Shown here: one piece after another, positions 11,943 through 28,994 of the stretch | How positions within the stretch are numbered: the stretch's first letter is position 1 | Layout: each line of letters starts with the position of its first letter | Assembly: GCF_002138415.1 (NCBI RefSeq) | Contig: NZ_CP015612.1 | Coordinates: forward strand, 2,768,001 to 2,832,000 | Length of the DNA: 64,000 bases | Direction: 5' to 3' | Source: Stenotrophomonas maltophilia | GTDB taxonomy: Bacteria > Pseudomonadota > Gammaproteobacteria > Xanthomonadales > Xanthomonadaceae | Translations under genes and position numbers: made by a program | Notes under the pieces: generated by a model | Seen by the model: only the letters and a program-made list of their open reading frames with translations | What the model was told of the DNA's origin: nothing | Databases searched by the model: none

Positions 11943-12063
11943 GGCGCCGATCTTAGCGCCAGGGAGTTGAACGGAGGGTGGTAGCGCCCTCGGCACCGGT
12001 CTATGATCCCAGTAGCGGCCCCGCTTGCATGGGGTCATGGAACAACCCAGGCAAGGACGCCCC

Positions 12064-12618
12064 ATGCTCGCCCGACTACTGCTGATCTGCCCTCTTTTCC
12101 TGGCTGCTCTCGGCCTGCCTCACATCGTCAAGGCCGAAGGTCGATGCCCACCGGGTTCCTACCCCATTGGCGGGCAAGGCGTGTTGGGTTGTGCGCCGAT
12201 TCCCGGAGGCGGTGGTGGCGACGCCGGACTTTCTCCGTCCGCACCAACCACCCGAGTAAAGATGGGCTCCGAATGGGTTGCATTTGCCCGTTCGCCGAAT
12301 GGCACACTCCTCGGCTGGAGCGTTCGCCAACACAAACAGAAGGCTGCCGAGAAACAGGCATTGAAGACCTGTAACAAGCGCAGCGGAACACAGTGCGAGA
12401 TCATTGCCTCGTTCACTGAAAGATGCGCCTACGCATTGCAGCACTACGACACCGGCCGGTTTGAAGTGGTCTTCCGCAGCGACAATGAATTGGCGCTCGG
12501 CACCGAAGTCGCACGCCAGACCTGCCCCAACGGTTGCCGATCGGTTCATTTCACTTGCGCCCGGGCAGTCAACCTGTATGGCAGGGGTCCCGACCCGGGA
12601 CCCAACTGGTCTCCTTGA
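12064..12618 (+). CDS. DUF4189 domain secreted protein
   Basis: 184 residues. AAGGA sits 6 bases before the ATG at 12064. A signal peptide (LARLLLICPLFLAALGL, cleavage near KAEG) is followed by a Cys-containing segment EGRCPPGSYPIGGQG and GCAPIPGG, then a DUF4189 domain with a Cys-rich core (WSVRQHKQKAAEKQALKTC). Periplasmic or secreted, function unknown. The same N-terminal signature occurs in two genes at the end of the T4SS locus (22961 and 23896), making this a third, dispersed paralogue about 10 kb from them. Confidence 0.82.
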   Translation: MLARLLLICPLFLAALGLPHIVKAEGRCPPGSYPIGGQGVLGCAPIPGGGGGDAGLSPSAPTTRVKMGSEWVAFARSPNGTLLGWSVRQHKQKAAEKQALKTCNKRSGTQCEIIASFTERCAYALQHYDTGRFEVVFRSDNELALGTEVARQTCPNGCRSVHFTCARAVNLYGRGPDPGPNWSP

Positions 12619-16464: not shown

Positions 16465-16738
16465 GGCGTAATGTTGGCTTGCGTGAGAGTTGCGTGAATT
16501 AGCGACCGATGTCACAAATTTTCGGCGAAATGTCGAACGCGAAGCGCAACCGCCCCGCGAACCTCGAATCGCCTGTGCCGCAATCGATTCGGCGATGCCG
16601 CCGAACGCTGAATGCGTCAAAATTCCGTCGCCGACGCCTTGCCGTAGCTGGCGCCAGGTTTCCAGAACACTCCATAATCGATAAACCTGTCACCAGGGAA
16701 GGATATATGGACACGGACGCACGATGCAGGATGCCGCC

Positions 16739-17395
16739 ATGGATGTAGCCATGCCGACACGCAAGGGACGCCATCTGGTACCGATGGGCCTGTTGCTGGC
16801 GCTGACGGCCTGCTCGCCTTACGCGGATGCAGAGCGTGACGTCGCCGCTGGTGGGCGCGGCCTGGCCAAACTCAACCCGTCACCGCAGCAGGGCTACGAG
16901 CTGGTACTGACACTGAAGGATGCCCCCGGCCCCTTCGCGGTGGTCGAGGGCGTTGCCCAGTACGACGCACGCAACTACGCAGCATGCGGGCAGATCGTGC
17001 CTGTAACGGGCACTGCGGGCCGCATCACCAGCCAAGAGCCCGTCACCCTGCACAAGGTCGGCGAGAACGAATACCGCGGCACGTTCTATCTCGACCGCAT
17101 GCAGGACGAGGACTATTACGGGCGTGGCGTCTGCCATTGGTCGCTGACAGGTGTCGGTGCGATGTTGCGCGCCACGAATGGCAAGGCGGACACGCGATTC
17201 CTGACGTTCATCGACAAGAAGCGCATGGACGCGGGGAGCCAATTGACACGGTACTACCCACGCGCCGACTACCCGCGGATCGAAGAGATCACCGGATACG
17301 GAGCGAGCGGCAAGGAAGATCCTTCCAGCTATCGCGCCGATCTGCGCGACGCGCTGTTCTCAACCACCACCACTGTGCAGAAGCTTGTGCCATGA
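16739..17395 (+). CDS. Lipoprotein, candidate immunity protein for the adjacent lipase effector (copy 1)
   Basis: 218 residues if started at the ATG at 16739, which has AGGA 7 bases upstream. Signal peptide with lipobox LTAC, then a domain running from GGRGLAKLNPSP through DAPGPFAVVEGVAQYD to YYPRADYPRIEEI. It is a paralogue of the next gene (many identical blocks: RGLAKLNPSP, VVEGVAQYD, ITSQEP, DEDYYGRGVC). A lipoprotein encoded directly before an XVIPCD lipase effector fits the X-T4SS immunity (X-Tfi) pattern. A 13-codon open frame with a Shine-Dalgarno (16707-16748) overlaps its start and could couple translation or be a vestige. Confidence 0.75.
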   Translation: MDVAMPTRKGRHLVPMGLLLALTACSPYADAERDVAAGGRGLAKLNPSPQQGYELVLTLKDAPGPFAVVEGVAQYDARNYAACGQIVPVTGTAGRITSQEPVTLHKVGENEYRGTFYLDRMQDEDYYGRGVCHWSLTGVGAMLRATNGKADTRFLTFIDKKRMDAGSQLTRYYPRADYPRIEEITGYGASGKEDPSSYRADLRDALFSTTTTVQKLVP

Positions 17396-17438
17396 ACTGC
17401 CAGTGTCACATTTACCTCTACCCCCAAGGAGGCCGACA

Positions 17439-18092
17439 TTGCGCCACAAGATGATTCCGTGCCTTGCTCTGCTTCTGTTGACCGCCTGCCATCCGGAGAC
17501 CGCCATGAACCAGGAACGTGCCGCTGCTGAAGCCGATGTCGCCCAGGGTGGGCGTGGCCTCGCCAAGCTCAACCCCAGCCCGCGCAAGGCCTATGAACTG
17601 GTGCTGCGCCTGAAGGATGCCCCCGGTGATTTCGCGGTGGTCGAGGGAGTCGCGCAGTACGACGTGACCAACGAAGACCAGTGCGGCCACATCGAGCCGG
17701 CCACCGGTACCGCCGCGCGCATCACCAGCCAGGAGCCGGTGGAGCTGCGCAAGGTCGCTGATGGTGAGTACCGGGGCACTGTATACATCGACCGCATGCT
17801 GGACGAGGATTACTACGGTCGTGGCGTCTGCAAGTGGGAATTCAGCGGCGCCGGTGCGATGCTGAAAGCCACTGGCGCCGAGGGTGAAACGCGCTTCCTG
17901 TCGTTCATTGAGGCAGCGCCGTTCGTCAAAGGCGAGACCGAAACTCGCCACTATCCTCGTGCAGACTATCCGCGCGTGAACGAGATTCCTGACTACGGCG
18001 CAAGCGGGCAGGAAGATCCCACCAAATTCCGCCCTGAACTTCAGAATGCGCTGTTCTCGGCTTCACTTGAAGCCAGTGAGGTGCGCCAATGA
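17439..18092 (+). CDS. Lipoprotein, candidate immunity protein for the adjacent lipase effector (copy 2)
   Basis: 217 residues. The start is TTG at 17439: AAGGAGG ends 6 bases before it, whereas the ATG at 17451 would be too far. Signal peptide and lipobox LTAC, then the same domain as the preceding gene (RGLAKLNPSPRKAYELVLRL, DEDYYGRGVCKWEFSGAGAM). It overlaps the lipase gene by four bases (ATGA), so production of toxin and protector is translationally coupled. Probably binds the incoming lipase in the periplasm of the producer and its kin. The function is inferred from position and lipoprotein nature. Confidence 0.78.
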   Translation: MRHKMIPCLALLLLTACHPETAMNQERAAAEADVAQGGRGLAKLNPSPRKAYELVLRLKDAPGDFAVVEGVAQYDVTNEDQCGHIEPATGTAARITSQEPVELRKVADGEYRGTVYIDRMLDEDYYGRGVCKWEFSGAGAMLKATGAEGETRFLSFIEAAPFVKGETETRHYPRADYPRVNEIPDYGASGQEDPTKFRPELQNALFSASLEASEVRQ

Positions 18093-19417
18093 GCCTCAAC
18101 AGCCAGGACTATGCTGCACTATCCGAAGATGCATACAAGGATTATGCGGTCGGTCGTCGTGCACCTGGTCAAGAAGAGATCGTCCCGATCAACGGCCACA
18201 AGTACAAGATTCTTGAGCATGTTGATAATCGACTGAACGGCTATCAGGGAACGATCTACCAGCGAGTCGACACCAATGAAATTGTCGTCGCACATCGCGG
18301 CACCGAACAGATCGCACGCGATGCAATTCTGACCGACGGTGGCATGGTCGTTGCCCGCACCAACGTGCAGGCTCCGGACGCCATCGCGCTGACTCAACGC
18401 GCCCTCGCCTACGCCAAGAAGGAAGGGCAGGATCTCGGACAACGTCCGCCCGAAGTTACCGTCACCGGCCACTCCCTCGGCGGCGCTCTGGCCCAGATCA
18501 CCTCGCACCACTTCAACGTCAAGGGCGAGACCTTCAATGCCTACGGCGCGGTCAGCCTCAGCTATCGCATTCCGGAAGGCGGCAACACCATGATCAACCA
18601 CGTCATGGCCTCCGACCCGGTCAGCGCCGCGTCACCGCATTTCGGCCAGGTCCGCATCTACGCCAAGCCCGATGAGATCAAGACGCTGGCCGCAAACGGC
18701 TTCAGCAATCACGCCCTGCGTGATCTGATTCCGGACCGCCCGATCATCGCGGCCACCAGCTCGTTCGGTGCGCACAAGCTGGGCAACTTCCTCAACGAAG
18801 GCTCGGTGCTGAAGCACCCGGAAACGCAGAAGCTGGCGAAAGACAACGCCAAGATGATCGAGGAGTATCGCGACGACGTCGAGTCACTGCGTCGCGGTGT
18901 CACCCGCGCCGCACGCGGCATCCCGGGCGGCGCCATCGATCTGTACGATCACATCCGCGGCCCACTGCAGCCCGGTGAACCGGCACGCCGCGAAGCGGAG
19001 AAGAACGGCCATCACACCAGCATGCTGCGCATGGACGATGCCAACCACCTGGGCAACCCACTGTTCAACGACGCGATCCGCGGCGTGCACGCACAGGACG
19101 TGCGGGTCGGTCGCGTGCCGGATGTGATGAGCACGCAGCTGGCGGGCAGCCTGGCGGCCGAAATGCACGCGGCTGGCGGCAAGCGCATCGACGAGGTAAT
19201 GATGAATGCCGATGCCTCGCGCAGCTTCGCCGTCCAGGGCCAGGGCGGTGACCCCGCTCACCTTCGCGTGTCGGTGGATACGGCAGTGGCGATGAACACA
19301 CCGCTGGAACAGAGCAGCCAGCGCATCGACCAGCAGGCCACAGGTCAGCGCCTTGCACTGGAGCGCGACCAACATCTGGAACAGCAGCAGAATCAGACCC
19401 GCAGCATGCAGGCCTGA
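18089..19417 (+). CDS. X-T4SS antibacterial effector: class 3 lipase fold with C-terminal XVIPCD
   Basis: 442 residues. The N-terminal half is an alpha/beta-hydrolase of the class 3 lipase type: VVAHRGT, nucleophile elbow GHSLGG (127-132, Ser129), probable Asp176 in ASDPVSAAS and His208 in SNHALRD. The C-terminal 120 residues carry the VirD4-recruitment domain seen in Xanthomonas-type effectors (XVIPCD): RIDEVMMNADASRSFAVQGQ, DPAHLRVSVDTAVAMNTPLE, then a Gln-rich tail. It should be secreted by the VirB/VirD4 machine into rival bacteria and attack membrane phospholipids. Two tandem lipoprotein genes upstream are its likely protectors. I recall a homologous lipase effector next to the K279a locus. 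Confidence 0.87.
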   Translation: MSLNSQDYAALSEDAYKDYAVGRRAPGQEEIVPINGHKYKILEHVDNRLNGYQGTIYQRVDTNEIVVAHRGTEQIARDAILTDGGMVVARTNVQAPDAIALTQRALAYAKKEGQDLGQRPPEVTVTGHSLGGALAQITSHHFNVKGETFNAYGAVSLSYRIPEGGNTMINHVMASDPVSAASPHFGQVRIYAKPDEIKTLAANGFSNHALRDLIPDRPIIAATSSFGAHKLGNFLNEGSVLKHPETQKLAKDNAKMIEEYRDDVESLRRGVTRAARGIPGGAIDLYDHIRGPLQPGEPARREAEKNGHHTSMLRMDDANHLGNPLFNDAIRGVHAQDVRVGRVPDVMSTQLAGSLAAEMHAAGGKRIDEVMMNADASRSFAVQGQGGDPAHLRVSVDTAVAMNTPLEQSSQRIDQQATGQRLALERDQHLEQQQNQTRSMQA

Positions 19418-19471: not shown

Positions 19472-20545
19472 TCAGGGGCTGGTGGCCGCGACCGGTGCAG
19501 ATGCACTGGCGGTCACGAACAGATCCGGCCCGGAATCCGGGAAGCCCCCACAGGCCCGATCCCCCGGCGCGACCGGATCACACGGCCACTGGCTGCGCGG
19601 GACCTTGTCGCGCAATTCGAAGCGATCTCCGGTCCAGACCACGAATGCCAGGTGCTCACGGTTCCAGTCACTGAACGCACGCGGGCCACCCTTCTGCGCC
19701 GCCTGCGGGTACTGCACGAACCAACGCATGGCAGGCCCGTACTGCAGCTTGCTGTGATCCAGCGTGATCCTGCCCTCACGCGCCAGCTGGCGAGCGCGAT
19801 CCGCATCGGTCTCCTGCGGCATGGCCGGCATCGCCTCGGCGGTGACATCCCTCGGCGCCGCATCGCCACGTACCTGGTAGACACGCTGGCTGACATAGGC
19901 CTCGCGGCAGTCACCGGCCGGCACGCGCACCGGCTCCTGTGCCTCCACAGTTATTCCGGTCGCCTGGTCGCTGCAGAGAAACGGTGCCGACACCAGGTAG
20001 AACGTGCTGTCGGCGTCCCGTCCTTCCAGCGAGCGCACCCATATGTCGCCCATCCGCACGATGAAGTCCGGGCGCTGGCCGTAGCCGGGCACCGCCTTGA
20101 ACCAGGCCTTCTGCCGCACCTCACGCTCGCGCCAGCTGCGCGGCAGGTGGATGTCCTGCTCAGGCACTGCCACCAGCAGAGCCGCCAGATGCGCCGGCAT
20201 CAGCCCCTCGCAGGCACCGATCAACAGATCGCCCTGGGTCGCCAGGCGCCCGGCCAGATCCACCGGACAACGGGCACCGAGCGCACGCTCGGTGGCCTGC
20301 TCCGGCGGCAATGGGACGACAGCCAGGGCGACTGGTGCCGGAGGCGCGCTTTCGACGGGCGGCACGGGTACGGGTGCCAGAGCTGGGGCTGGCATCGTCG
20401 CGGGTGTGGCAGCTGGCCCGGCCTCCTGAGCCTGTGCCACCGCAGCAACGAGGTTGAATGACAGCAGCCAGAGCGGCAGCAGTCGGCGTGTGGACGAAGT
20501 ACAGCGGGCAACGACATACCGGGAATTCGGGAGAGCGATTCGCAT
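19472..20545 (-). CDS. Secreted proline-rich protein, candidate immunity protein for the GH19 effector
   Basis: 357 residues. GTAAGGA lies 7 bases before the ATG at 20545. Signal peptide (LLPLWLLSFNLVAAVAQAQ), then a Pro/Ala-rich spacer of about 50 residues, then a domain with conserved-looking Cys residues (RCPVDLAG, LIGACEG, FLCSDQATG, WPCDPVAPGDRACGG). No known family recognised. It follows the GH19 effector on the same strand after 99 bases. A periplasmic product beside a peptidoglycan-attacking effector is the expected form of an X-T4SS immunity protein, but this is inference. Confidence 0.65.
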   Translation of the reverse strand: MRIALPNSRYVVARCTSSTRRLLPLWLLSFNLVAAVAQAQEAGPAATPATMPAPALAPVPVPPVESAPPAPVALAVVPLPPEQATERALGARCPVDLAGRLATQGDLLIGACEGLMPAHLAALLVAVPEQDIHLPRSWREREVRQKAWFKAVPGYGQRPDFIVRMGDIWVRSLEGRDADSTFYLVSAPFLCSDQATGITVEAQEPVRVPAGDCREAYVSQRVYQVRGDAAPRDVTAEAMPAMPQETDADRARQLAREGRITLDHSKLQYGPAMRWFVQYPQAAQKGGPRAFSDWNREHLAFVVWTGDRFELRDKVPRSQWPCDPVAPGDRACGGFPDSGPDLFVTASASAPVAATSP

Positions 20546-20644
20546 GTGGTGTCCTTACGTTGGGTTTCCATGTCGGCGCCAGAAGGCGCCACGCGTCTTG
20601 CGTCCAGCACCTGCGAGCCTCCACCCCGCAAGCACCCCCGTGGG

Positions 20645-21649
20645 TCAGATCGAACGTGAACGCTGCTCCTGCTCGCGGGCAACGGCAGCAGACTGATCCT
20701 GCTGAGAAACACTGGCCGCCAACTGCTGGCTGCTCTGCGCCAGTGGCTGCTGGGCGGCCTGCTCCCGGTCAACGGACGCACGCAGCATCGCCGGATCACC
20801 CAGCGCGCCCTGCACTGCAAACAGCGTGCGGCCGTCGTTGCCCGCCAGCAGATGATCGATGCGCGACAGGCCGGCCTTCTGCGCCCCCAGCGCCAATGCG
20901 CCAGCGGTATTGTCGAGCTCCTGTGCATTGCGCAGTCCACTTTGTGGTCCCATCTGCTGCAGGTGCCGGCGCGCATCCTCGAACAACGCGTTGCCGGGCT
21001 CACCGGCATGTGACATATCGCGTGTAACGGTCTGCGCCGGCGCACCGACTTCGCCTCGATTCAGTCGCGCCATCACGTCCGGCGTCAATTTCTGCTGCCA
21101 GCCCTCGAAGCGCTGCTGGCGTGCCTCGATGCCGTTGAGCGCGCCATTGATCGCCCGCGTCGCTTCGCGCACATCCTCGCGCGCGGCTTCCGGCACACGT
21201 GTCTGCCACTGCCACACCGCAATACGGCCCGCATGCTCGGGCAGCGCCGCCAGTTCCGGCTGATTCACCAGATCCAGATCCAGCGCCTTGCCGGCACGCT
21301 CGTAATTCTCCTTGCCGACCAATGGCAGATAGCCGCGGCCGTGATACTTCAGTGCGTCGCCAGGCGCGTCGTTGCCCATGCGCCCGCCGTACATCAGCTC
21401 GGCCAGATTCTCCGGCCGCCCACGAAGCGCCTCCTGGCGGGCGCTCTCCAGCGCACCATTACCATTACGCCACGCGGCTTCCACCGGGATCTGCGAGATG
21501 CCCCGGGTGAAGTTGAAGCTCTCGTTGAGTCGACTCAAGCCACGGGATTCGTGCCCGGCCTGGGCCATGAAATTGGCCAGTTCCCGGGACGAGGTGATGC
21601 CAGCCTCCGTGGCCTGTCGCAACAACTGCGACTCTCTATCCTGCGACAC
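20645..21649 (-). CDS. X-T4SS antibacterial effector: GH19 lysozyme/chitinase-like domain with C-terminal XVIPCD
   Basis: 334 residues. GTG start at 21649 preceded by AGGAG at 7 bases. The N-terminal 200 residues are a GH19-type muramidase: ANFMAQAGHESRGLSRLNES with catalytic Glu34 in HES, LMYGGRMGN, and KYHGRGYLPLVGKENYERAG. The last 110 residues are an XVIPCD: GLSRIDHLLAGNDGRTLFAV, GALGDPAMLRASVDREQAAQ, then a Gln/Ser-rich tail. It has no signal peptide, as expected for a substrate recruited by VirD4. The predicted action is hydrolysis of target-cell peptidoglycan. It resembles the XAC2609 class of X. citri effectors and is flanked by two candidate immunity genes. Confidence 0.88.
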   Translation of the reverse strand: MSQDRESQLLRQATEAGITSSRELANFMAQAGHESRGLSRLNESFNFTRGISQIPVEAAWRNGNGALESARQEALRGRPENLAELMYGGRMGNDAPGDALKYHGRGYLPLVGKENYERAGKALDLDLVNQPELAALPEHAGRIAVWQWQTRVPEAAREDVREATRAINGALNGIEARQQRFEGWQQKLTPDVMARLNRGEVGAPAQTVTRDMSHAGEPGNALFEDARRHLQQMGPQSGLRNAQELDNTAGALALGAQKAGLSRIDHLLAGNDGRTLFAVQGALGDPAMLRASVDREQAAQQPLAQSSQQLAASVSQQDQSAAVAREQEQRSRSI

Positions 21650-21706
21650 GGTGGAACTCCTGCTCGATCATCGTGGGGTACTCCTGCCTCCTCACAGGCG
21701 CGGCAC

Positions 21707-22243
21707 TCAAGGCAGGCTCACGTCGGCAACTGCGGACGGATCGAAATCCTCGAATCGCACCCTGCCCAGCTCGGCTGCCGAGAACTCACGCGTATGGGTC
21801 GCCTCGGTCTCGGTATCAACCACCCTGCGCTGTACGCCCTGCACCCAGCAGGCCCGCTCCAGTGGTGCGTAACGGAACGTGTAAATGCTGCTCCAGCGTT
21901 CCCTGCTGCCGCCATTGGTGATCACGCTGAAAGCACCATCCTCGATCGTCACGTAGGCGAAGGGATCGCCGGCGATCCCGCCGCGGGTGGAGCACGGCAC
22001 CAGCTTGTCGTTGCGCGCGGCCAGCTGCCAGCGTCCCGCCGCATCACCCAGCAGCAGCAACAGCACCCGGTTGGGACCGTGCTCGCCGGGCACCAGGCCA
22101 TCGGGCGCCGGTTGATCGATCACCAGCAACTGGTCGTCGATGCCATTGCCGGTGAGATCGCCGCGTACGGCTTCCAGCAGGTTCGCGCCGGACGGAACGA
22201 ACGCCAGGGCATTGTCCATGTGCGTGCCACTCCCCTTTTCCAT
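21707..22243 (-). CDS. FG-GAP-like protein upstream of the GH19 effector
   Basis: 178 residues from the ATG at 22243 (AAGGAG 9 bases upstream; a second ATG at 22219 also has a good GGGGAG site). The segment AVRGDLTGNGIDDQLLVID resembles an FG-GAP/VCBS repeat and is followed by beta-strand-rich sequence (GRWQLAARNDKLVP, GDPFAYVTIEDGAFSVITNG). X. citri XAC2610, the immunity partner of a GH19 effector, is also a beta-propeller-like protein, so this may be related to it; however no signal peptide is visible at either start, which argues against a periplasmic inhibitor. It lies 57 bases before the effector gene on the same strand. Confidence 0.6.
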   Translation of the reverse strand: MEKGSGTHMDNALAFVPSGANLLEAVRGDLTGNGIDDQLLVIDQPAPDGLVPGEHGPNRVLLLLLGDAAGRWQLAARNDKLVPCSTRGGIAGDPFAYVTIEDGAFSVITNGGSRERWSSIYTFRYAPLERACWVQGVQRRVVDTETEATHTREFSAAELGRVRFEDFDPSAVADVSLP

Positions 22244-22960
22244 CCCCTGCAACTCCTTCCAAGCCGTCTTGCCAGTATCCATGCAACGGCCGGGATACCG
22301 CGCAATACGCAACATGTCCCGATGTCCGCCAAAGCGGATGATAGCCCTGGCCCTGCGAGGACTTCGGTGGTCACGAGCGTCGCCCGTACGGTGGGTCGTC
22401 AGAGTCCTCATGGACGGAAAAGCTCCTGCGCTCGATTGCACCGATGCGTCGGAATTTTGACGCGCACGCAGCTTACTTCGAGGAAGCACCGTTCGTCGAA
22501 GGGGGCCCCAAAAGAAAAGCGCAACTGATCACACAAAAAGCGGGGCTATCGTGAACAGTCACCAACCCGCTGGAACCACATCACCTGAATTCGATGGACG
22601 CATCATCGTTGCCCCGGCCTCATTCAAGGACAGCGCCCCTCAGGGCAGTTCTGCCGCGCCACGCTGACCTGGAATCTCTGAACCCAGGCCTCCGCACAGC
22701 ATGCCCAACGCAATCGATACTGTCGCCACCAGAACCGCAACGGGAACATCGTGCCTGTGCCGTAGAACAACTACCTTTGAACAGCTGCTTGGCCTAGGCA
22801 AACAGCAGACAGAAAATGAACAGCGACCGCAAGTCGATGAACGAGGACAAAGGGACCTCGTACAGCAGGCGCTCTGAATGTTGGCTTGGTCAACATTCCC
22901 TGACAACCCGTAATGCGACCTCTAGCAACTCATGCCTGCAGGCCCCGCCCCCCCCTTCGC
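22244..22960. other. Gap with promoter region and virB6 debris
   Basis: About 717 bases without an intact gene. The right part (22700-22880) holds a decayed virB6 fragment, described separately. The left part (22244-22600) is the presumed promoter region of the FG-GAP/GH19 unit and has lower GC around 22510-22550 (AAAAGAAAAG, ACACAAAAAG). No other feature recognised. Confidence 0.55.
22700..22880 (-). pseudogene. Decayed virB6 fragment (second copy)
   Basis: Bases here align by eye with the virB6 region around 24893-25065: shared strings include CCAACGCAATCGA, GCCGTAGAA, GAACAGCTGCTTGG, AAACAGCAG and TCGTACAGCAG in the same order. Indels and stops prevent reading as VirB6. It is shorter and more diverged than the other fragment at 23487, so it is probably the older duplicate. 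Confidence 0.72.
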
Positions 22961-23470
22961 TCAATAAGACTTGAAGAGCGGCTCAGTGCAATCGGTATAG
23001 AGCACCTTGCATTGCCCGATGCTCTCCTTACTGCACGCTGCCAGCACATTCTGGGTTGCACTTTCGCGCGATGCTCCCGTGTTCGTCCTTACCTTCCGTC
23101 CTTCCTGCGCGGTCGCGTAGGCAACGCACTGGTTCTTGTAAGTTGTCAGGACTTTGCAGTCGGTCGCCCCATGCTGCGCACATCGCTCTTGGGCTTCTGC
23201 CTCGGCTGCCGACTTATCCTTATGATCCTTGGATGCCCCCATGTCACCGGACGCCGGTGACAGAGAGATGGCACCCCACGTCTTGATCCAACGGCCGTCG
23301 GGCCTGGGCGCAGATGTGCCACTCTCCCCCCCGGTTGGAATCGGGGCGCACCCACCGACACCCGGGCCACCGATTGGATACTGACCTGGCGGGCAGCGCC
23401 CTTCTGCAAATGCTTGGCCGGCAGCTACCAACGTAATCATCAGAAGAATCACGCGCGAAGCCAAAGACAT
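22961..23470 (-). CDS. DUF4189 domain secreted protein (T4SS-linked copy 2)
   Basis: 169 residues. AAGAGG lies 5 bases before the ATG at 23470. Signal peptide (LASRVILLMITLVAAGQAFA), then the shared segment EGRCPPGQYPIGGPGVGGC followed by APIPTGGE, and a DUF4189 domain with WGAISLSPASGDMGASKDHK and paired cysteines (ERCAQHGATDCKV, KNQCVAYA, QCKVLYTDC). Periplasmic or secreted, role unknown. It sits between two virB6 remnants, so it arose by duplication with the end of virB6. Its position inside the killing locus suggests a role linked to the T4SS or to protection. Confidence 0.8.
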   Translation of the reverse strand: MSLASRVILLMITLVAAGQAFAEGRCPPGQYPIGGPGVGGCAPIPTGGESGTSAPRPDGRWIKTWGAISLSPASGDMGASKDHKDKSAAEAEAQERCAQHGATDCKVLTTYKNQCVAYATAQEGRKVRTNTGASRESATQNVLAACSKESIGQCKVLYTDCTEPLFKSY

Positions 23471-23486
23471 ATTTACCTCTTCATCA

Positions 23487-23850
23487 GAAGAACATGGCCG
23501 CCATTGGGGGCGCAGTCAGAATCAAGGTCGTCAGGATCAGGCCCATGCCGCCCTGCTACATTGCCTGACTGGTCATGCCGTCGCTGGAGGCGCCGGCCAG
23601 CAGATACTTGTTCACCAATGCCGTGGTTCAGAAGGTGGCCACTACACGTTCCACCATGTCAAGCGCGATGGAGACCATCGCTGCAAGTACGGCCATCGAG
23701 AACATCGTGCCGATGCCTTAAACAGCCAGCGCTGGAACAACTGCTTGGTCTGCTCGAACAGCAGGCACGGAGTAGACAGTGGCAAAACCCACCAGAGAAC
23801 ATCAATGCCAGCTCGAACCGGAGCGGTATCGAGCCCGCGAGAAATCACGG
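23487..23850 (-). pseudogene. Decayed virB6 fragment (first copy)
   Basis: Very similar to virB6 bases 24727-25080: the strings CCATTGGGGGCGCAGTCAG, CCCATGCCGCCCTGCT and TGGTCATGCCGTCGCTGGAG are shared in order and spacing. Read on the minus strand, a Gln codon of VirB6 has become TAG in the MTSQAM-stop region, and later a TAA occurs in place of the tyrosine region. It therefore cannot encode VirB6. The similarity extends more weakly to about 23850. Confidence 0.85.
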
Positions 23851-23895
23851 CAAATTGCAACGAGCGGCAGAGCTCTATTGCCGCTAGACCTCACA

Positions 23896-24444
23896 TCAGC
23901 GGAATGACTTGAACTCAGACATGCTGCAGGCGGAATAGGCAATCTCGCAAGTCGCCCCCGTATTGAGGGTGGAACACTGAGTCAAAGCCAAGCTCTTAGC
24001 CTTCTCCAAAGTCTCTGCACTTACTGCAGTTGACTTTCCGGCAGCCATACTCCCACTAAGAACAACGTCCGCTATTGCAGCACATTGATTGTAGTAGGCC
24101 ATTCGAACGTAGCACTTTTTCCCACCACTTCGTTCACATCGCTCAAGCGCTATCGCCTCTGCGGCCCGCTTCGACTTCTGGCCTATTACAGCCCCAGTAG
24201 ACATCGGACTACCCGGCTCAGCCTCCCGATCTTCAGCAACCGCACCCCAACGAGTTTCCCACTTCCCAGTTGGCACAGGGGCAGATGTTTCACCCGTCCC
24301 CGCAGCCCCTCCAGGGATTGGAGCACAACCCAGCACTCCTTGCTCACTACCCACAGGGTATTGCCCTGGCGGGCACCGCCCTTCCGCCAGAGCTGTAAGC
24401 GGGGCCAAGAAGAATGCAACCGCCAGAAGAAGAACTCGACTCAT
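23896..24444 (-). CDS. DUF4189 domain secreted protein (T4SS-linked copy 1)
   Basis: 182 residues from the ATG at 24444, preceded by GGGAG at 9 bases; the frame extends further upstream but overlaps virB6 and is not signal-like. Signal peptide SRVLLLAVAFFLAPLTALA, then EGRCPPGQYPVGSEQGVLGC and APIPGG, then the DUF4189 domain (KRAAEAIALERCERSGGKKC, YYNQCAAIAD, CEIAYSACS). It starts 49 bases after the virB6 stop, on the same strand, and is most likely the last or near-last gene of the virB transcript. Lower GC than neighbours in parts (for example 23990-24180). Confidence 0.82.
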   Translation of the reverse strand: MSRVLLLAVAFFLAPLTALAEGRCPPGQYPVGSEQGVLGCAPIPGGAAGTGETSAPVPTGKWETRWGAVAEDREAEPGSPMSTGAVIGQKSKRAAEAIALERCERSGGKKCYVRMAYYNQCAAIADVVLSGSMAAGKSTAVSAETLEKAKSLALTQCSTLNTGATCEIAYSACSMSEFKSFR

Positions 24445-24493
24445 GCAAAAAACTCCCAAGAAACTACCGGGCAATGCCCTTGGAGGGAAGTTG

Positions 24494-25639
24494 CTAGCCT
24501 GAGAACTTTCCATATGTCCCCGGGCCAACTCCGCTGCTCGATCCGCCGTCATCTATTTTCCGACCACCAGCCGCCTGAGCAACGGGAGCGTGCTGATGCG
24601 TTGCCGTATTTATTGTCTGCGCAGGTGTATAGCTGCCCGGCGGCTGTCCATTCGGACCAGGCGCCGCCGCAGGGCTGCCACCTATCTGCGAATATGCCAT
24701 GAAGCCGCCCAGCGTGCCCTGGAAGAACATCGCGGCCATTGGGGGCGCAGTCAGGATCAGCGTCGTCAGAATCAATCCCATGCCGCCCTGCTGCATCGCC
24801 TGGCTGGTCATGCCGTCGCTGGAGGCGCCATTAAGCAAGTAACGATTTACCAGCGCAGTCGTCCAGAACGATGCCGATACACGGATCACCATATCCAACG
24901 CAATCGACACCATGGCCGCAAGCACCCCCATCGAGAACATGGTGCCTATACCGTAGAAGAGCCACTTCTGGAACAGCTGCTTGGTCTGTTCAAACAGCAG
25001 GCACAGTATGAACAAGGGCCCCAGCCCGATGAACAGCGCCATCGCAACTTCGTACAGCAGCAGCATCGAGCCTGCCGTGACTGCGGGACCGCCGGCGCCC
25101 AATCCGATGAACCACTGTGCGCGGGTCTTGTCAGCCTGCAACCCCGGATCATCCAACACCTTGATGGCATCAATGCTCGACAACGCCACCTGCATCCAAG
25201 CCAAGCTCTTGTCGATCTGATCCTCAGGCTTTTCATCCTTGCCAGTCACGACATGGGTGATGACACCTTTGACGTCACTGGTCAGGAACTTCTGCAGATT
25301 GGTACCAAACATCGCCATGCTGGTAGCGACACTGACAATCAGCGCAGCGCGAGCCATGTTGGTAACAAGCACCATCATCGAGTCACGGCTTCGGCCGGTG
25401 ACAATTCGATAGCCCTGAATCAGCACCCACAGGGTCATGAGAATGAGGGCCATGGCGCCAACCCACTTCATCATGTTGCCCATCAGTTCGATGCCAAACT
25501 TCCCGATACGGTCGTGCAGGAAGTCCAGGATCAGGCGGAAGAACACGAAATCGCCGATCGACTGGATACGCACCGCGTAACCCAGAAGATCCTGCAACCC
25601 GCCTGAAAAATTGAAATTGAAAATCGAGCTGATCGACAT
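24494..25639 (-). CDS. virB6: T4SS inner-membrane protein VirB6
   Basis: 381 residues. Start chosen at the ATG at 25639 because AAGGGA lies 8 bases upstream; a GTG at 25645 is too close to it. Polytopic membrane protein with about five to six hydrophobic segments (for example WVGAMALILMTLWVLIQGYR, LLLYEVAMALFIGLGPLFIL, LVLTTLILTAPPMAAMFFQG region) and the TrbL/VirB6 motif GLGPLFILCLLFEQTKQLFQ. A Pro/Gly-rich hydrophilic tail of about 60 residues ends the protein. VirB6 forms part of the inner-membrane complex. It is the last core component in this locus, and its 3' half has been duplicated twice downstream. Confidence 0.92.
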   Translation of the reverse strand: MSISSIFNFNFSGGLQDLLGYAVRIQSIGDFVFFRLILDFLHDRIGKFGIELMGNMMKWVGAMALILMTLWVLIQGYRIVTGRSRDSMMVLVTNMARAALIVSVATSMAMFGTNLQKFLTSDVKGVITHVVTGKDEKPEDQIDKSLAWMQVALSSIDAIKVLDDPGLQADKTRAQWFIGLGAGGPAVTAGSMLLLYEVAMALFIGLGPLFILCLLFEQTKQLFQKWLFYGIGTMFSMGVLAAMVSIALDMVIRVSASFWTTALVNRYLLNGASSDGMTSQAMQQGGMGLILTTLILTAPPMAAMFFQGTLGGFMAYSQIGGSPAAAPGPNGQPPGSYTPAQTINTATHQHAPVAQAAGGRKIDDGGSSSGVGPGTYGKFSG

Positions 25640-25718
25640 TTCCACAATCCCTTGGTAGTTCCGCTACCGCTCTAGTCGCCGCAATGCGATGCAGCGTCCA
25701 TGTGCCCGGTTGACGCGG

Positions 25719-26516
25719 TTATTTGATGCTCAACGCGGCCTTGAGCGAAACAGTCTTTACTAGATCACTTGCCAGGCGAATCGCCGTTGGATCACCCTTC
25801 AATGCCGCCTGGGCAACGATCTTCTGGTTGGCTTCCATGACCTCGATGTACGCGTCGTAAGCCTTCATTCGCGCCTGCCAGGACTGCGACTGCACCGCCA
25901 GCTCGTTGGCCGTCCGCAACGAATCACTGTCAACGCCGGTCACAGTACCCGCGCGGTTGTCGCGCTTGCGGTTCGCGTTGATCTTCGTGATCAGATCGTC
26001 CATCTGCGGGATTGTCTGCTGAATGAAGTCAACTGAATCGTTGTACTTGCGATTCTGCATCATCCGGATATTGACGCAGATCTGACGCTGCTGCTGCTTG
26101 ACGTCACCCTTTGGGTTGAAGACAAAGTACGAGAAAAGCATGTCCACGGGATCGCCACTTCCGCCATTGCCACAGGCCTCGGTCACCATGTAATCATCCG
26201 GCACACGCGTCAGGATGGCGCCTGGCGGAAGACCGAACGACTTGAAGATGCTCTGGACATCGATGATTGCTTCGCGCACCTGGTTGAGCATTTCACTCCA
26301 GCGCTTGGCGTTCTCACCGAATTCGATGCCGTTGGAAATGCGATCCAGCATGGCCTGGAGCCAATTGGCACCGTCATACACGGGGATTGCATTTACAGAG
26401 GACACACCGCCCAGCGACAGCGCCACCCCAAGCGTCAACGCCGCAAGGCGCGATCGCAGGAGGCCACGCTTTCCAGTGCTGGCATTCATCGACGCGTTCT
26501 TCATGATCATCTCCAT
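25719..26516 (-). CDS. virB5: T4SS minor pilin VirB5
   Basis: 265 residues from the ATG at 26516, with GGAG 6 bases upstream. Signal peptide with LAALTLGVALSLGGVSSVNA, then a helical domain (WLQAMLDRISNGIEFGENAK, MLNQVREAIIDVQSIFKSFG) typical of VirB5 proteins, and a C-terminal amphipathic helix region (ANELAVQSQSWQARMKAYDA). VirB5 caps the T4SS pilus. Identity is supported mainly by position between virB4 and virB6. Confidence 0.88.
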   Translation of the reverse strand: MEMIMKNASMNASTGKRGLLRSRLAALTLGVALSLGGVSSVNAIPVYDGANWLQAMLDRISNGIEFGENAKRWSEMLNQVREAIIDVQSIFKSFGLPPGAILTRVPDDYMVTEACGNGGSGDPVDMLFSYFVFNPKGDVKQQQRQICVNIRMMQNRKYNDSVDFIQQTIPQMDDLITKINANRKRDNRAGTVTGVDSDSLRTANELAVQSQSWQARMKAYDAYIEVMEANQKIVAQAALKGDPTAIRLASDLVKTVSLKAALSIK

Positions 26517-26549
26517 TGTCTTCTCCTTCACTCCGCGAAGGCGCCTTGT

Positions 26550-28994
26550 TCAGGCGACCTCATCGCGGCTGACTGCGGTTTTCCCCGAGCCTTTCCGATT
26601 CCTATAGAACTCTTCCAGCCACTGCTCCGGGCTGAGCTCGTCCACTGTCACGCGCGCACGTACTGCGGCCGTCTGCAACACCCGATGCATGATGTCGATA
26701 TTGTCGGTCGAGGCCGAAATCACTGAAAGAATGTCGTCCATGCCACGCAGGTTGAGCTGGCAGACACTGGAAGCATGGCCCTGCTTCACCAGGAAGCAGC
26801 GCGAGCGCTCGTCCAGTGCGGTCACCACCCTGAACTCGGCCTCGGTCAGCTTCAGGCCATCCATGTAGTCGCTCTTGCTGGCATTCGGGTTCGGCAGCAG
26901 GATCAGCGTAGCGGTCTGCTCGATCAGGGCGGCAGAGATATCGCTCTTCAGCGCATCCTCCGGACTCTGCGTAGCGAAGATGCCCAGACCATTCTGCTTA
27001 CGGATGGTCTTCTGCTTGTTCTTCGCGAACTCCTTCAGGCCACCCTCGCCGTCCAGGATCTTCCAGAACTCGTCCATCACATAGATCAGCGGACGACCAT
27101 CGATCAGCGACTCGAGGCGATGCAGCAGGTAATTGATGACCGGCACGCGCACTTCGGGGTTGTCAATGATGTCGGTGTAGTCGAAGCCGATGATGTTGGC
27201 CTTGCTCAGGTCAACGGTATCCACCGGATTGTCAAACACCCAACCCAGCGAATTACCGGAGGTCCAACGACGCATGCGCGCATAGAGGCCGTCGTCGCCC
27301 ATGTTGGGCAGGCTCTTCTGGAAGTTGGTCATGCTGCGCAGGTGCATCGGCGTATCCAGCATGCTCTCCACCGCGCGGTAGATATCCTCTTCCTCGCGCG
27401 CGCTGTACTCGCGCTTGCCAGCCAGCACCTTGATCAGATCGGCCAGGAACTGCACGTTGGCTTCGTTGTTTTCGCACTGGAACGGGTTGAAACCGGTGGG
27501 CGCGCCGTTCTCCAGGGCCAGATAATTGCCGCCGCAGGCACGCACGAAGATCTCCGCACCGCGATCCTTGTCGAAAAAGAAGATCGTCGGCGACGGCTCG
27601 TACTTCTGCACCTGACTGAGCAGGAAGTTGATCAGCGCGGTCTTACCGGTACCGGACTTGCCGATCACCATGGTGTTGGCGATCGCCTTCTCACCGAGTG
27701 AATTCTCGGATGGATGGGTAGCGTGGAAATTGAAATAGTACGGCTGACCGTTGGTGGTCTGCAGCGTGGTCACGCAATCGCCCCACGGGTTGTTGTGCTG
27801 CTTGCCGGTGGCGAAGTTGTGCAGCGGCGAAAGGCCCAGGAAATTCAGCGAGCTGACATTGGCCAAACGCGTACGGTAGCGCCAGTTGCCCGGCAGCTGC
27901 GAGTAGAAGGACGAGGTGACCGCGAGGTCTTCCTTGGTCGACACGAATCCAGCATTGGACAGTTCGGCGCGGGTCGAGGCCACGTTCTGCGAAAGCTTTG
28001 CCTGGCTATCGCCGTAGACCGCCATGATGAAGTGGTACTCACCCAGCACGAAATTGCCGGATGACAGCTGATCCATCGCCTGATCGAGCTCCACGATCTG
28101 GCTGACGGCCTTGTCGCCAGACGAGATCATCATGCCCTTGGTCCGGTCGAGCACCTTCAGCGCGTCCTGGCGCCCCATCGGGCTGAAGGAATGGGTGATG
28201 ACGTACTCATAGTCCAGGTACTTCAGACCGTTCAGAATGCCCGGGTAGGTACCCTCGGCATACTCCTTGATGTTCAAGATGGCGCCGAAGTGGTTGGCGC
28301 CATTTGGGGTATTGATGACGAAGTCCCCGGTCTTGGCCGAGAACATGTGCCGGCTGACCGGCAGGTAGTCCTTGATCGGCGCGGGCAACACCGGCACCGG
28401 CTCGTCGATGCGGTTGATCAGATAGCCGAACAACTCCAGCGTCTCGGAGAACACGACCCCATTCTTCGCTTCGTACATGCCCAAACGGTACGGCGCATAA
28501 TCACGGATGACGGCCTCGACGTTGCCCGCAAGCTCCATCAGCTTCTCAACCGCCTGCTCCTGCTCGGCGCGCAGCTTATCGACGTTCGCCGACTTCTCGA
28601 CAAAGCGCTTACCCGCCACCACCGGGCGGTAGATCATGGTCAGGTACAACTCGTTCTGCATGATGCGCTGCGAGGACAGCATGCCCATGTACTGGTCGGA
28701 CACGTCCTGGTTGAAGCGCTGCTTGAAGCTGCTCTTCCCTTTCAGCGTGCGACGACGACGGATGTCGTGCACCCAGAAAGCAACGTTGACGAAGTCGGGC
28801 GCACGCAGCGTCTGCAGCAGGCGGTTGAAGGTGTTGTGACGATGCTCGAGCTCCCACTCCTCGCGGCCGACGAACGGCAGCCCTTCCAGGTGCCAGGTCA
28901 GCAGATAGTCGCCGCCCGTGGTCTTGACCACGTTCGGAGCAACATGTGACGACAACGGGATGAACTCACTGATGGAGGTGTCAGGGCTGAACAT
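26550..28994 (-). CDS. virB4: T4SS ATPase VirB4
   Basis: 814 residues. The N-terminal CagE/TrbE domain (IPLSSHVAPNVVKTTGGDYL, EWELEHRHNTFNRLLQTLR) precedes the ATPase domain with Walker A VIGKSGTGKTALINFLL and Walker B LIYVMDEFWKIL, and the conserved FATQSPEDALKS. It powers pilus assembly and substrate passage at the inner membrane. Located 33 bases before virB5 and 81 bases after virB3. Confidence 0.97.
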   Translation of the reverse strand: MFSPDTSISEFIPLSSHVAPNVVKTTGGDYLLTWHLEGLPFVGREEWELEHRHNTFNRLLQTLRAPDFVNVAFWVHDIRRRRTLKGKSSFKQRFNQDVSDQYMGMLSSQRIMQNELYLTMIYRPVVAGKRFVEKSANVDKLRAEQEQAVEKLMELAGNVEAVIRDYAPYRLGMYEAKNGVVFSETLELFGYLINRIDEPVPVLPAPIKDYLPVSRHMFSAKTGDFVINTPNGANHFGAILNIKEYAEGTYPGILNGLKYLDYEYVITHSFSPMGRQDALKVLDRTKGMMISSGDKAVSQIVELDQAMDQLSSGNFVLGEYHFIMAVYGDSQAKLSQNVASTRAELSNAGFVSTKEDLAVTSSFYSQLPGNWRYRTRLANVSSLNFLGLSPLHNFATGKQHNNPWGDCVTTLQTTNGQPYYFNFHATHPSENSLGEKAIANTMVIGKSGTGKTALINFLLSQVQKYEPSPTIFFFDKDRGAEIFVRACGGNYLALENGAPTGFNPFQCENNEANVQFLADLIKVLAGKREYSAREEEDIYRAVESMLDTPMHLRSMTNFQKSLPNMGDDGLYARMRRWTSGNSLGWVFDNPVDTVDLSKANIIGFDYTDIIDNPEVRVPVINYLLHRLESLIDGRPLIYVMDEFWKILDGEGGLKEFAKNKQKTIRKQNGLGIFATQSPEDALKSDISAALIEQTATLILLPNPNASKSDYMDGLKLTEAEFRVVTALDERSRCFLVKQGHASSVCQLNLRGMDDILSVISASTDNIDIMHRVLQTAAVRARVTVDELSPEQWLEEFYRNRKGSGKTAVSRDEVA

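Follow-up and report, generated by a model that had tools for sequence, protein, structure and literature searches.

The stretch of DNA analyzed here, which we call the window, comprises 64,000 nucleotides of the genome of Stenotrophomonas maltophilia (contig NZ_CP015612.1), and its minus strand carries the virB operon of a type IV secretion system (T4SS) followed by an array in which genes of the DUF4189 family alternate with remnants of the channel gene virB6 (Table 1). The order along that strand (virB6, a DUF4189 gene, a virB6 scrap, a second DUF4189 gene and a more decayed scrap) had been proposed in a sequence-only reading of this DNA and is confirmed by the open reading frames (ORFs), Pfam matches, repeats and DNA alignment. 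The two DUF4189 proteins score 58.4 and 82.4 bits against PF13827 (curated cut-off 25), which is the sole Pfam family to exceed its own cut-off in them, and share 42% amino acid and 52.8% DNA identity. Both remnants are oriented like virB6, and the first holds three TGA, one TAG and one TAA stop in frame, the TAG having been reported before. Each is nearer to the virB6 of another locus than to that of the window: for remnant 1 the DNA identity is 87.4% to the virB6 of locus L092 against 79.5%, and for remnant 2 it is 77.7% to that of L034 against 73%. From comparison with other genomes we conclude that such arrays very probably arise by sequential displacement, in which the old unit is not copied but displaced by an imported one. 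Published work is cited below by PubMed Central (PMC) number.

Table 1. The window and the features of its virB6-DUF4189 array and flanks (positions are those of the window, except in the first row; E, E-value; nt, nucleotide; X. citri, Xanthomonas citri)
Feature	Position	Strand	Basis
The window, in a 4.67-Mb single-contig genome; virB operon, then array, on the minus strand	2768001-2832000 of the contig		
virB6, intact; T4SS inner-membrane/stalk channel subunit	24494..25639	-	TrbL/VirB6 PF04610, E 7.5e-28
Hypervariable C-terminal tail of VirB6, starting after ...GQPPGSY; the gene part that appears to be swapped	24494..24628	-	Column entropy and collapse of nucleotide identity
DUF4189 no. 1, 182 aa, signal-peptide-like N-terminus; current virB6 partner	23896..24444	-	PF13827 E 1.1e-15
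virB6 remnant 1 (scar), tail missing	23487..23768	-	Repeat D1; 79.5% over 283 nt to own virB6 nt 660-942
DUF4189 no. 2, 169 aa, putatively displaced, yet intact	22961..23470	-	PF13827 E 3.7e-23
virB6 remnant 2, apparently the older scar	22695..22868	-	Repeats D2-D4; 73% over 174 nt to own virB6 nt 604-777
Flanking gene outside the array, occupying the place of XAC2610, an X-Tfi immunity protein of X. citri	21707..22489	-	No Pfam match; labelled by gene order alone (PMC7286519)
Flanking X-Tfe effector, GH19 + XVIPCD	20645..21649	-	PF20410 E 7e-27, PF00182 E 4.3e-9; position of X. citri XAC2609

The comparison covers 48 loci with a full-length virB6, namely the window, 28 loci that a search with virB6 alone brought up and 19 that were reached by way of DUF4189. 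Eight of the 36 loci of the virB6-found set were left out as partial or lying on cut contigs, as were 18 of the 40 of the DUF4189-found set, these being the window itself or contigs already among the named loci; from the 51 loci remaining, two without virB6 and one with a partial virB6 were removed. Downstream of virB6, 26 of the 48 loci hold 57 virB6-like stretches of at least 40 bits, all 57 on the virB6 strand, and the arrangement does recur in other genomes. The similarity goes beyond chance, and chance is ruled out as the source of the scraps by a control with reversed-sequence queries, which gave 36 spurious clusters at an E-value of 1e-3 and none at 40 bits. One of the 57 stretches (L049 17351-18709) is nearly full length, lies far downstream and is not a scrap, and nine lie behind the last intact DUF4189 gene. 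Eleven other query proteins of the T4SS region of the window found no match at 40 bits in 33 arrays, where virB6 found 47; the X-Tfe of the window, used as a single effector query, found none at 40 bits in the 125,269 bases of 33 arrays.

Scraps are present in 44 of the 90 gaps between consecutive intact DUF4189 genes, and their two ends behave differently. The left ends are ragged, falling between nt 250 and 944 of virB6 (17 of 37 begin at most 150 nt away from the stop of the DUF4189 gene before them), and the right ends are nearly fixed, with the likeness to the resident virB6 stopping 112-165 nt before the virB6 stop, at the tail boundary, in 32 of 37 cases. The tails of the scraps differ from the resident tail; many are open to a stop of their own shortly before the next DUF4189 gene, and others are cut or shifted. 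The earlier description of the fragments as the 3' half of virB6 stands in that they derive from virB6 and lie on its strand, and fails in that their left ends are ragged and the tail is lacking from remnant 1 of the window. In the out-of-genus locus L117, six of eight scraps retain only the last 58-86 nt of virB6, and the exchange boundary may differ in that genus.

To explain the array, the sequence-only reading had invoked two rounds of tandem duplication of a unit made of the virB6 3' end and DUF4189, followed by selection on DUF4189 and decay of virB6, and the order and orientation of the parts do fit such a history. The identities of the parts do not. We compared them in those gaps, 37 in 21 loci, that hold at least 100 bp of scrap of the locus's own virB6. 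The DNA identity of scrap to own virB6 has a median of 90.8% (72.9-96.5%), whereas for the DUF4189 gene, taking the better of its matches to the neighbouring and to the first copy, the median is 55.6% (48.8-70.6%), and the scrap is the more similar of the two in 37 of 37 gaps (79.5% against 52.8% in the window). A pseudogene scrap thus looks younger than a gene under selection, and DUF4189 was therefore not copied together with it; the unlikeness of scrap and resident tails also speaks against copying. Of the 136 intact DUF4189 copies, 110 have their closest relative in a different genome and 26 in their own array; the 26 are in favour of duplication, as are certain close within-array pairs (L059_2/L059_9, 92%; L102_2/4, 78%; L076_2/3/4, 72-75%). 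Within-array pairs that are at least 65% identical, the true tandem copies, number 15 of 210. For 42 of the 59 copies with a relative of at least 80% identity in another genome, that relative occupies a different stack position (intact copies counted), and this shuffling between genomes would be left unexplained even if gene conversion were added to duplication to keep the scraps young. On the scrap and DUF4189 identities and the cross-genome nearest relatives we reject tandem duplication as the main route, which we regard as very improbable; it is a minor contributor to the arrays. What the earlier account said of virB6 copies decaying while DUF4189 copies stay intact is borne out, as is the driving part it gave to recombination, with the exchange located at virB6.

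The exchanged unit can be delimited from the variation of VirB6, in which a conserved core is followed by a C-terminal tail, some 40-55 residues long, that is hypervariable. In the full-length VirB6 set, column entropy rises from 0.44 bits at residues 300-320 to 2.5-2.9 bits at residues 340-389 (numbering of the window ORF). Among 22 locus pairs with VirB6 cores at least 97% identical (97-100%), 15 have tails of at most 50% and first DUF4189 copies of at most 54% identity, five have tails of at least 64% and first DUF4189 copies of at least 76%, and two are intermediate (L040/L080, tail 44% and DUF4189 72%; L100/L103, 55% and 69%). DNA identity was profiled along 16 of these pairs, the 15 with divergent tails plus L100/L103: it is 81-100% per 130-nt bin in the core (92-99% in the last core bin), about 30-65% in the tail, 41-61% in the spacer and 51-57% in DUF4189 (70% for L100/L103). 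It is well supported by the sequences that the VirB6 tail, the spacer and DUF4189 form one exchangeable block, which appears to be swapped at the virB6 core. Tail identity and DUF4189 identity are correlated across 59 modules and 1675 between-genome pairs (r 0.61; 0 of 2000 permutations). Another 31 of the 90 modules were left out of this set for want of a tail anchor, for too short a tail, as members of diverged groups (by list) or for a scrap too far from DUF4189; they include all eight L059 modules, whose anchor differs.

Modules that are current in one genome are found displaced in another (L098.1 = L047.2, tail 100% and DUF4189 97%; L103.1 = L034.5, 92% and 99%; L091.1 = L102.3, 92% and 98%), and L098/L047 and L103/L034 share theirs although their VirB6 cores are only 60-67% identical. 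At least two DUF4189 genes are shared at 80% identity or more by 15 locus pairs, which are not independent, several loci being related; 13 of these pairs keep the order, and 12 of the 13 do so with an offset (e.g., L100 1,2 = L103 2,3 at 97% and 88%; L039 4,5 = L095 1,2 at 99% and 98%; L047 2,3 = L098 1,2). In L039, the sequence ahead of DUF4189 no. 4 matches the end of virB6 and the spacer of L095 at 99.2% identity along 263 nt, the VirB6 cores of the two hosts being 78% identical. Such ordered, offset sharing implies that new modules most likely enter beside virB6. In the scheme that the sequences support well, foreign blocks come in by recombination within the conserved virB6 core, upon which the incoming tail and DUF4189 become the current ones and the old DUF4189 moves downstream, set off by a scrap from the 3' end of the former virB6; repeated entry builds a stack with the newest module next to virB6. 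The ragged left and near-fixed right ends of the scraps suggest that one end is joined by homology and the other by illegitimate joining, comparable to the homology-facilitated illegitimate recombination proposed in a model for the type VI secretion system (T6SS) of Vibrio cholerae (PMC5361080).

The pairing of virB6 with DUF4189 is widespread. Among 61 genomes from the genus, DUF4189 occurs in 46 and this virB6 (called at E 1e-10) in 41, and DUF4189 is found in 40 of the 41 virB6-bearing genomes, G018 being the exception; six of the 20 genomes without virB6 have DUF4189, five weakly and G044 strongly. No more than 300 nt separate the virB6 stop from the start of the DUF4189 gene in 28 of the 28 loci found by virB6 alone and in 47 of 48 overall (the exception is L108). 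In 14 other genera of the family it lies within 200 nt behind a virB6 in 20 of 20 places examined, which were picked among the stronger matches and are not all of them (G124:C1:688528, for example, is not included); L121 and L125 of this set repeat contigs of L060 and L052, and four of the out-of-genus loci (L115, L116, L117 and L121) have virB6 scraps beside DUF4189 genes. The largest stack, of nine intact copies, is that of Xanthomonas floridensis (L059), and 136 of the 188 DUF4189 pieces are intact genes, so not all copies survive.

Several individual loci extend this picture. In G018 (L111), the next long same-strand ORF downstream of virB6 resembles comEC by eye. The strong DUF4189 gene of G044 (L112) possibly represents a defence without a weapon. 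Proteins with two DUF4189 domains are encoded near virB6 on the opposite strand in L043 (11803-13023), L045 (11782-13050) and L114 (7231-8625), and the genomes G066, G121 and G072 each have two separate virB6-DUF4189 loci (L118/L119, L127/L128 and L121/L134). Plasmid-borne relatives of DUF4189 no. 2 were found in six records; the Rhizobium plasmid CP041205, typed as conjugative, has three consecutive DUF4189 genes (L110 8258-10040), and no T4SS gene is annotated in the 18.5-kb stretch around them, which provides no link to conjugation there. The window itself has a third, lone DUF4189 gene about 10 kb from the array (12025-12618, plus strand, E 1.5e-11), which has no T4SS gene noticed adjoining it by eye and is perhaps a stranded exclusion gene.

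Selection was gauged by the ratio of nonsynonymous to synonymous substitution rates (dN/dS) in between-genome pairs of DUF4189 proteins of at least 75% amino acid identity, pairs that are not independent. The median is 0.136 between displaced copies (range 0.05-0.47; 37 finite values of 40 pairs), 0.126 between current and displaced copies (22 pairs, up to 0.51) and 0.12 between current copies (4 pairs), in agreement with the earlier suggestion that selection maintains the copies. A set made up of the last intact copy of six loci (L046_3, L054_6, L072_2, L095_4, L101_4 and L104_4) is still constrained, with values of 0.07-0.16, and the constraint therefore probably acts after displacement; on these ratios displaced DUF4189 copies appear functional. 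A hydrophobic, signal-like N-terminus is present in 136 of 136 intact copies when counted by a simple and lenient rule with hand-chosen start codons, and eight cysteines are conserved in 97-100% of the same copies. NCBIfam gave no matches for four DUF4189 proteins, the anti-phage defence families of PADLOC none for three DUF4189 proteins and VirB6, and a search by sequence for solved structures of relatives of DUF4189 no. 2 came up empty. Among open-licence PMC papers (no preprints), none on DUF4189 concerns T4SS by title, none deals with a hypervariable VirB6, and none that names X-T4SS, VirB6 and Xanthomonas together also contains 'orphan immunity'.

The effector with GH19 and XVIPCD domains at the end of the locus identifies the T4SS of the window as a bacteria-killing X-T4SS. 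Two lines of published work bear on what DUF4189 might do there. In conjugation, TraS and Eex target the VirB6 homologue TraG, exclusion genes are encoded beside their target, and virB6 is the immediate neighbour of the exclusion gene in IncP, IncW and IncN (PMC11493245). In X. citri, where the immunity proteins work in cis, the wild type spares sisters that lack eight X-T4SS effector-immunity pairs, and Oka et al. 2024 name 'a still-to-be-characterized mechanism of protection' (PMC10933484). The location of exclusion genes beside virB6 homologues, together with this sister protection, leads us to favour DUF4189 as an X-T4SS exclusion factor. We envisage that the putatively exported, cysteine-rich DUF4189 would recognize the VirB6 tail of a same-type attacker and stop or disarm delivery, thus acting as an entry-exclusion or apparatus-level immunity factor, and that displaced copies would be retained since neighbours would still carry the older tail types. 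We put the whole explanation, block displacement together with DUF4189 as a tail-reading exclusion or immunity factor, at a probability of roughly 0.55, and the role of DUF4189 as such a factor, taken by itself, at even odds. More tentatively, and with somewhat less than an even chance, self and non-self may in bacteria-killing T4SSs be told apart at the machine and not at the toxin, with the VirB6 tail as an identity tag, DUF4189 as its reader in the envelope of the target cell and the stack as an inherited memory of former tags that spares relatives.

The alternative that survives best makes DUF4189 a partner in cis, a chaperone, anchor or cap needed by its own VirB6 tail for assembly, with the displaced copies being leftovers or interchangeable. 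The position of DUF4189 directly behind virB6 in all 28 virB6-found loci speaks for such a role. In X. citri, virB6 (XAC2612) and XAC2611, the gene just behind it, whose function is given as not known (PMC7286519, PMC3953393), lie on one virB7-to-xac2609 transcript (PMC7286519); XAC2611 is a counterpart by position only. The displaced copies are, however, about as constrained as the current ones (0.136 and 0.12, the latter from only 4 pairs), stacks of up to nine intact copies are hard to explain by a role in cis alone, and G044 retains its strong DUF4189 gene with no match to this virB6 at E 1e-10. We therefore rate the cis role as rather unlikely. It is improbable that the VirB6 tail is or carries a toxin with DUF4189 as its classical immunity protein, as in contact-dependent inhibition (CDI) and Rhs systems: the logic of the locus is that of T6SS and Rhs immunity arrays (PMC5361080), but the tails are about 50 residues long and rich in Gly, Pro, Ser and Gln by eye, and the only strong Pfam match of the window VirB6 is TrbL, upstream of the tail, with no toxin domain found. 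Least probable of all is a neutrally varying tail with DUF4189 as unrelated cargo that hitch-hikes at a hot spot of recombination. Linkage by itself would yield the correlation of tail and DUF4189, but the gene behind virB6 is DUF4189 in 28 of 28 unbiased loci, DUF4189 lies behind virB6 in 20 of 20 out-of-genus places, and it is under purifying selection.

Several observations weigh against block displacement with DUF4189 as reader of the tail, the strongest doubt being topology, as the tail must be reachable from the envelope of the target. VirB6 C-termini have been placed in the cytosol in Agrobacterium tumefaciens and Brucella suis (PMC6536674), and the TraG/Eex determinants are cytoplasmic (PMC11493245), whereas DUF4189 looks exported. 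In the R388 cryo-electron microscopy structure only helices 1 and 2 of VirB6 insert in the membrane (PMC9259494), which makes a periplasmic tail possible and does not show it. Neither Pfam nor NCBIfam matches DUF4189 to a known exclusion family. The co-variation of tail and DUF4189 is rejected as proof of binding: the two lie about 100 nt apart within a block that is non-homologous as a whole between types, and their linkage is mechanical. The pairing is also imperfect, with five cross-genome pairs in which DUF4189 is at least 70% identical (70-94%) and the tails less than 55% (40-53%). These are L040.1/L037.3 (DUF4189 94%, tail 45%) and L084.2 with L091.1 and L102.3 (83%, 42-43%), in which the displaced tail appears shifted or cut by eye, and L040.1/L080.1 (72%, 40%) and L100.1/L103.3 (70%, 53%), whose departure is unexplained. 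G018 has virB6 and no PF13827 match, 46 of the 90 gaps have no detectable virB6 scar, and of the locus pairs sharing several DUF4189 genes, L084/L103 has the order reversed and L091/L102 is ambiguous.

A scan of window positions 20000-27000, which include the array, against Rfam returned no known RNA element. Two neighbouring, look-alike ORFs of about 220-235 aa (16724-18092, plus strand) stand just before a 442-aa lipase-like ORF (18089-19417, plus strand) and are possibly, by eye, two immunity genes for one effector.

The module of VirB6 tail and DUF4189 offers a concrete candidate for the sister protection of X. citri reported by Oka et al. 2024 (PMC10933484). It predicts which strains tolerate each other and, if it acts as proposed, would carry the principle of entry exclusion beyond conjugation into bacterial killing and give DUF4189 a first suggested function in these bacteria. 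The arrays would also be a case of displacement arrays forming on a structural subunit instead of a toxin.

The same displacement-array pattern is seen in the orphan modules of Rhs and CDI systems. Two features of such arrays are found here: the exchangeable end of the anchor travels with a small gene, and displaced genes match the current pairs of other genomes more than one another. The T6SS immunity arrays of V. cholerae are alike in having a conserved upstream part, an exchangeable end with a small downstream gene and a stack of displaced genes, and in their origin by horizontal transfer instead of duplication, with the same kind of recombination proposed (PMC5361080). In contrast to T6SS and Rhs arrays, the anchor here is a structural T4SS channel subunit and not an effector, what is exchanged is a short tail of low complexity, and about half of the gaps still contain DNA scars of the anchor. 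Conjugative entry exclusion (TraS/TraG, Eex/TraG and ExcA/TraY) likewise involves a small protein encoded beside a virB6 homologue, with TraG, the homologue of VirB6, as the exclusion target in IncF and SXT/R391 (PMC11493245, PMC12624023). The putative exclusion described here differs in belonging to a system for bacteria-killing protein delivery and in its stacks of displaced copies, and DUF4189 differs from the known factors in its apparent export and in matching no exclusion family. X-Tfi immunity proteins of the XAC2610 type are encoded in the same locus, and XAC2610 is exported, with a signal peptide and lipobox (PMC10933484), as DUF4189 appears to be, but X-Tfis have an XVIPCD effector as their partner and work in cis, whereas DUF4189 pairs with virB6 and was not found paired with an XVIPCD effector gene in the 33 arrays searched with one effector query. 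Sequential displacement is thus known for the toxin-immunity genes of T6SS and Rhs systems, and is here built on a T4SS channel subunit.

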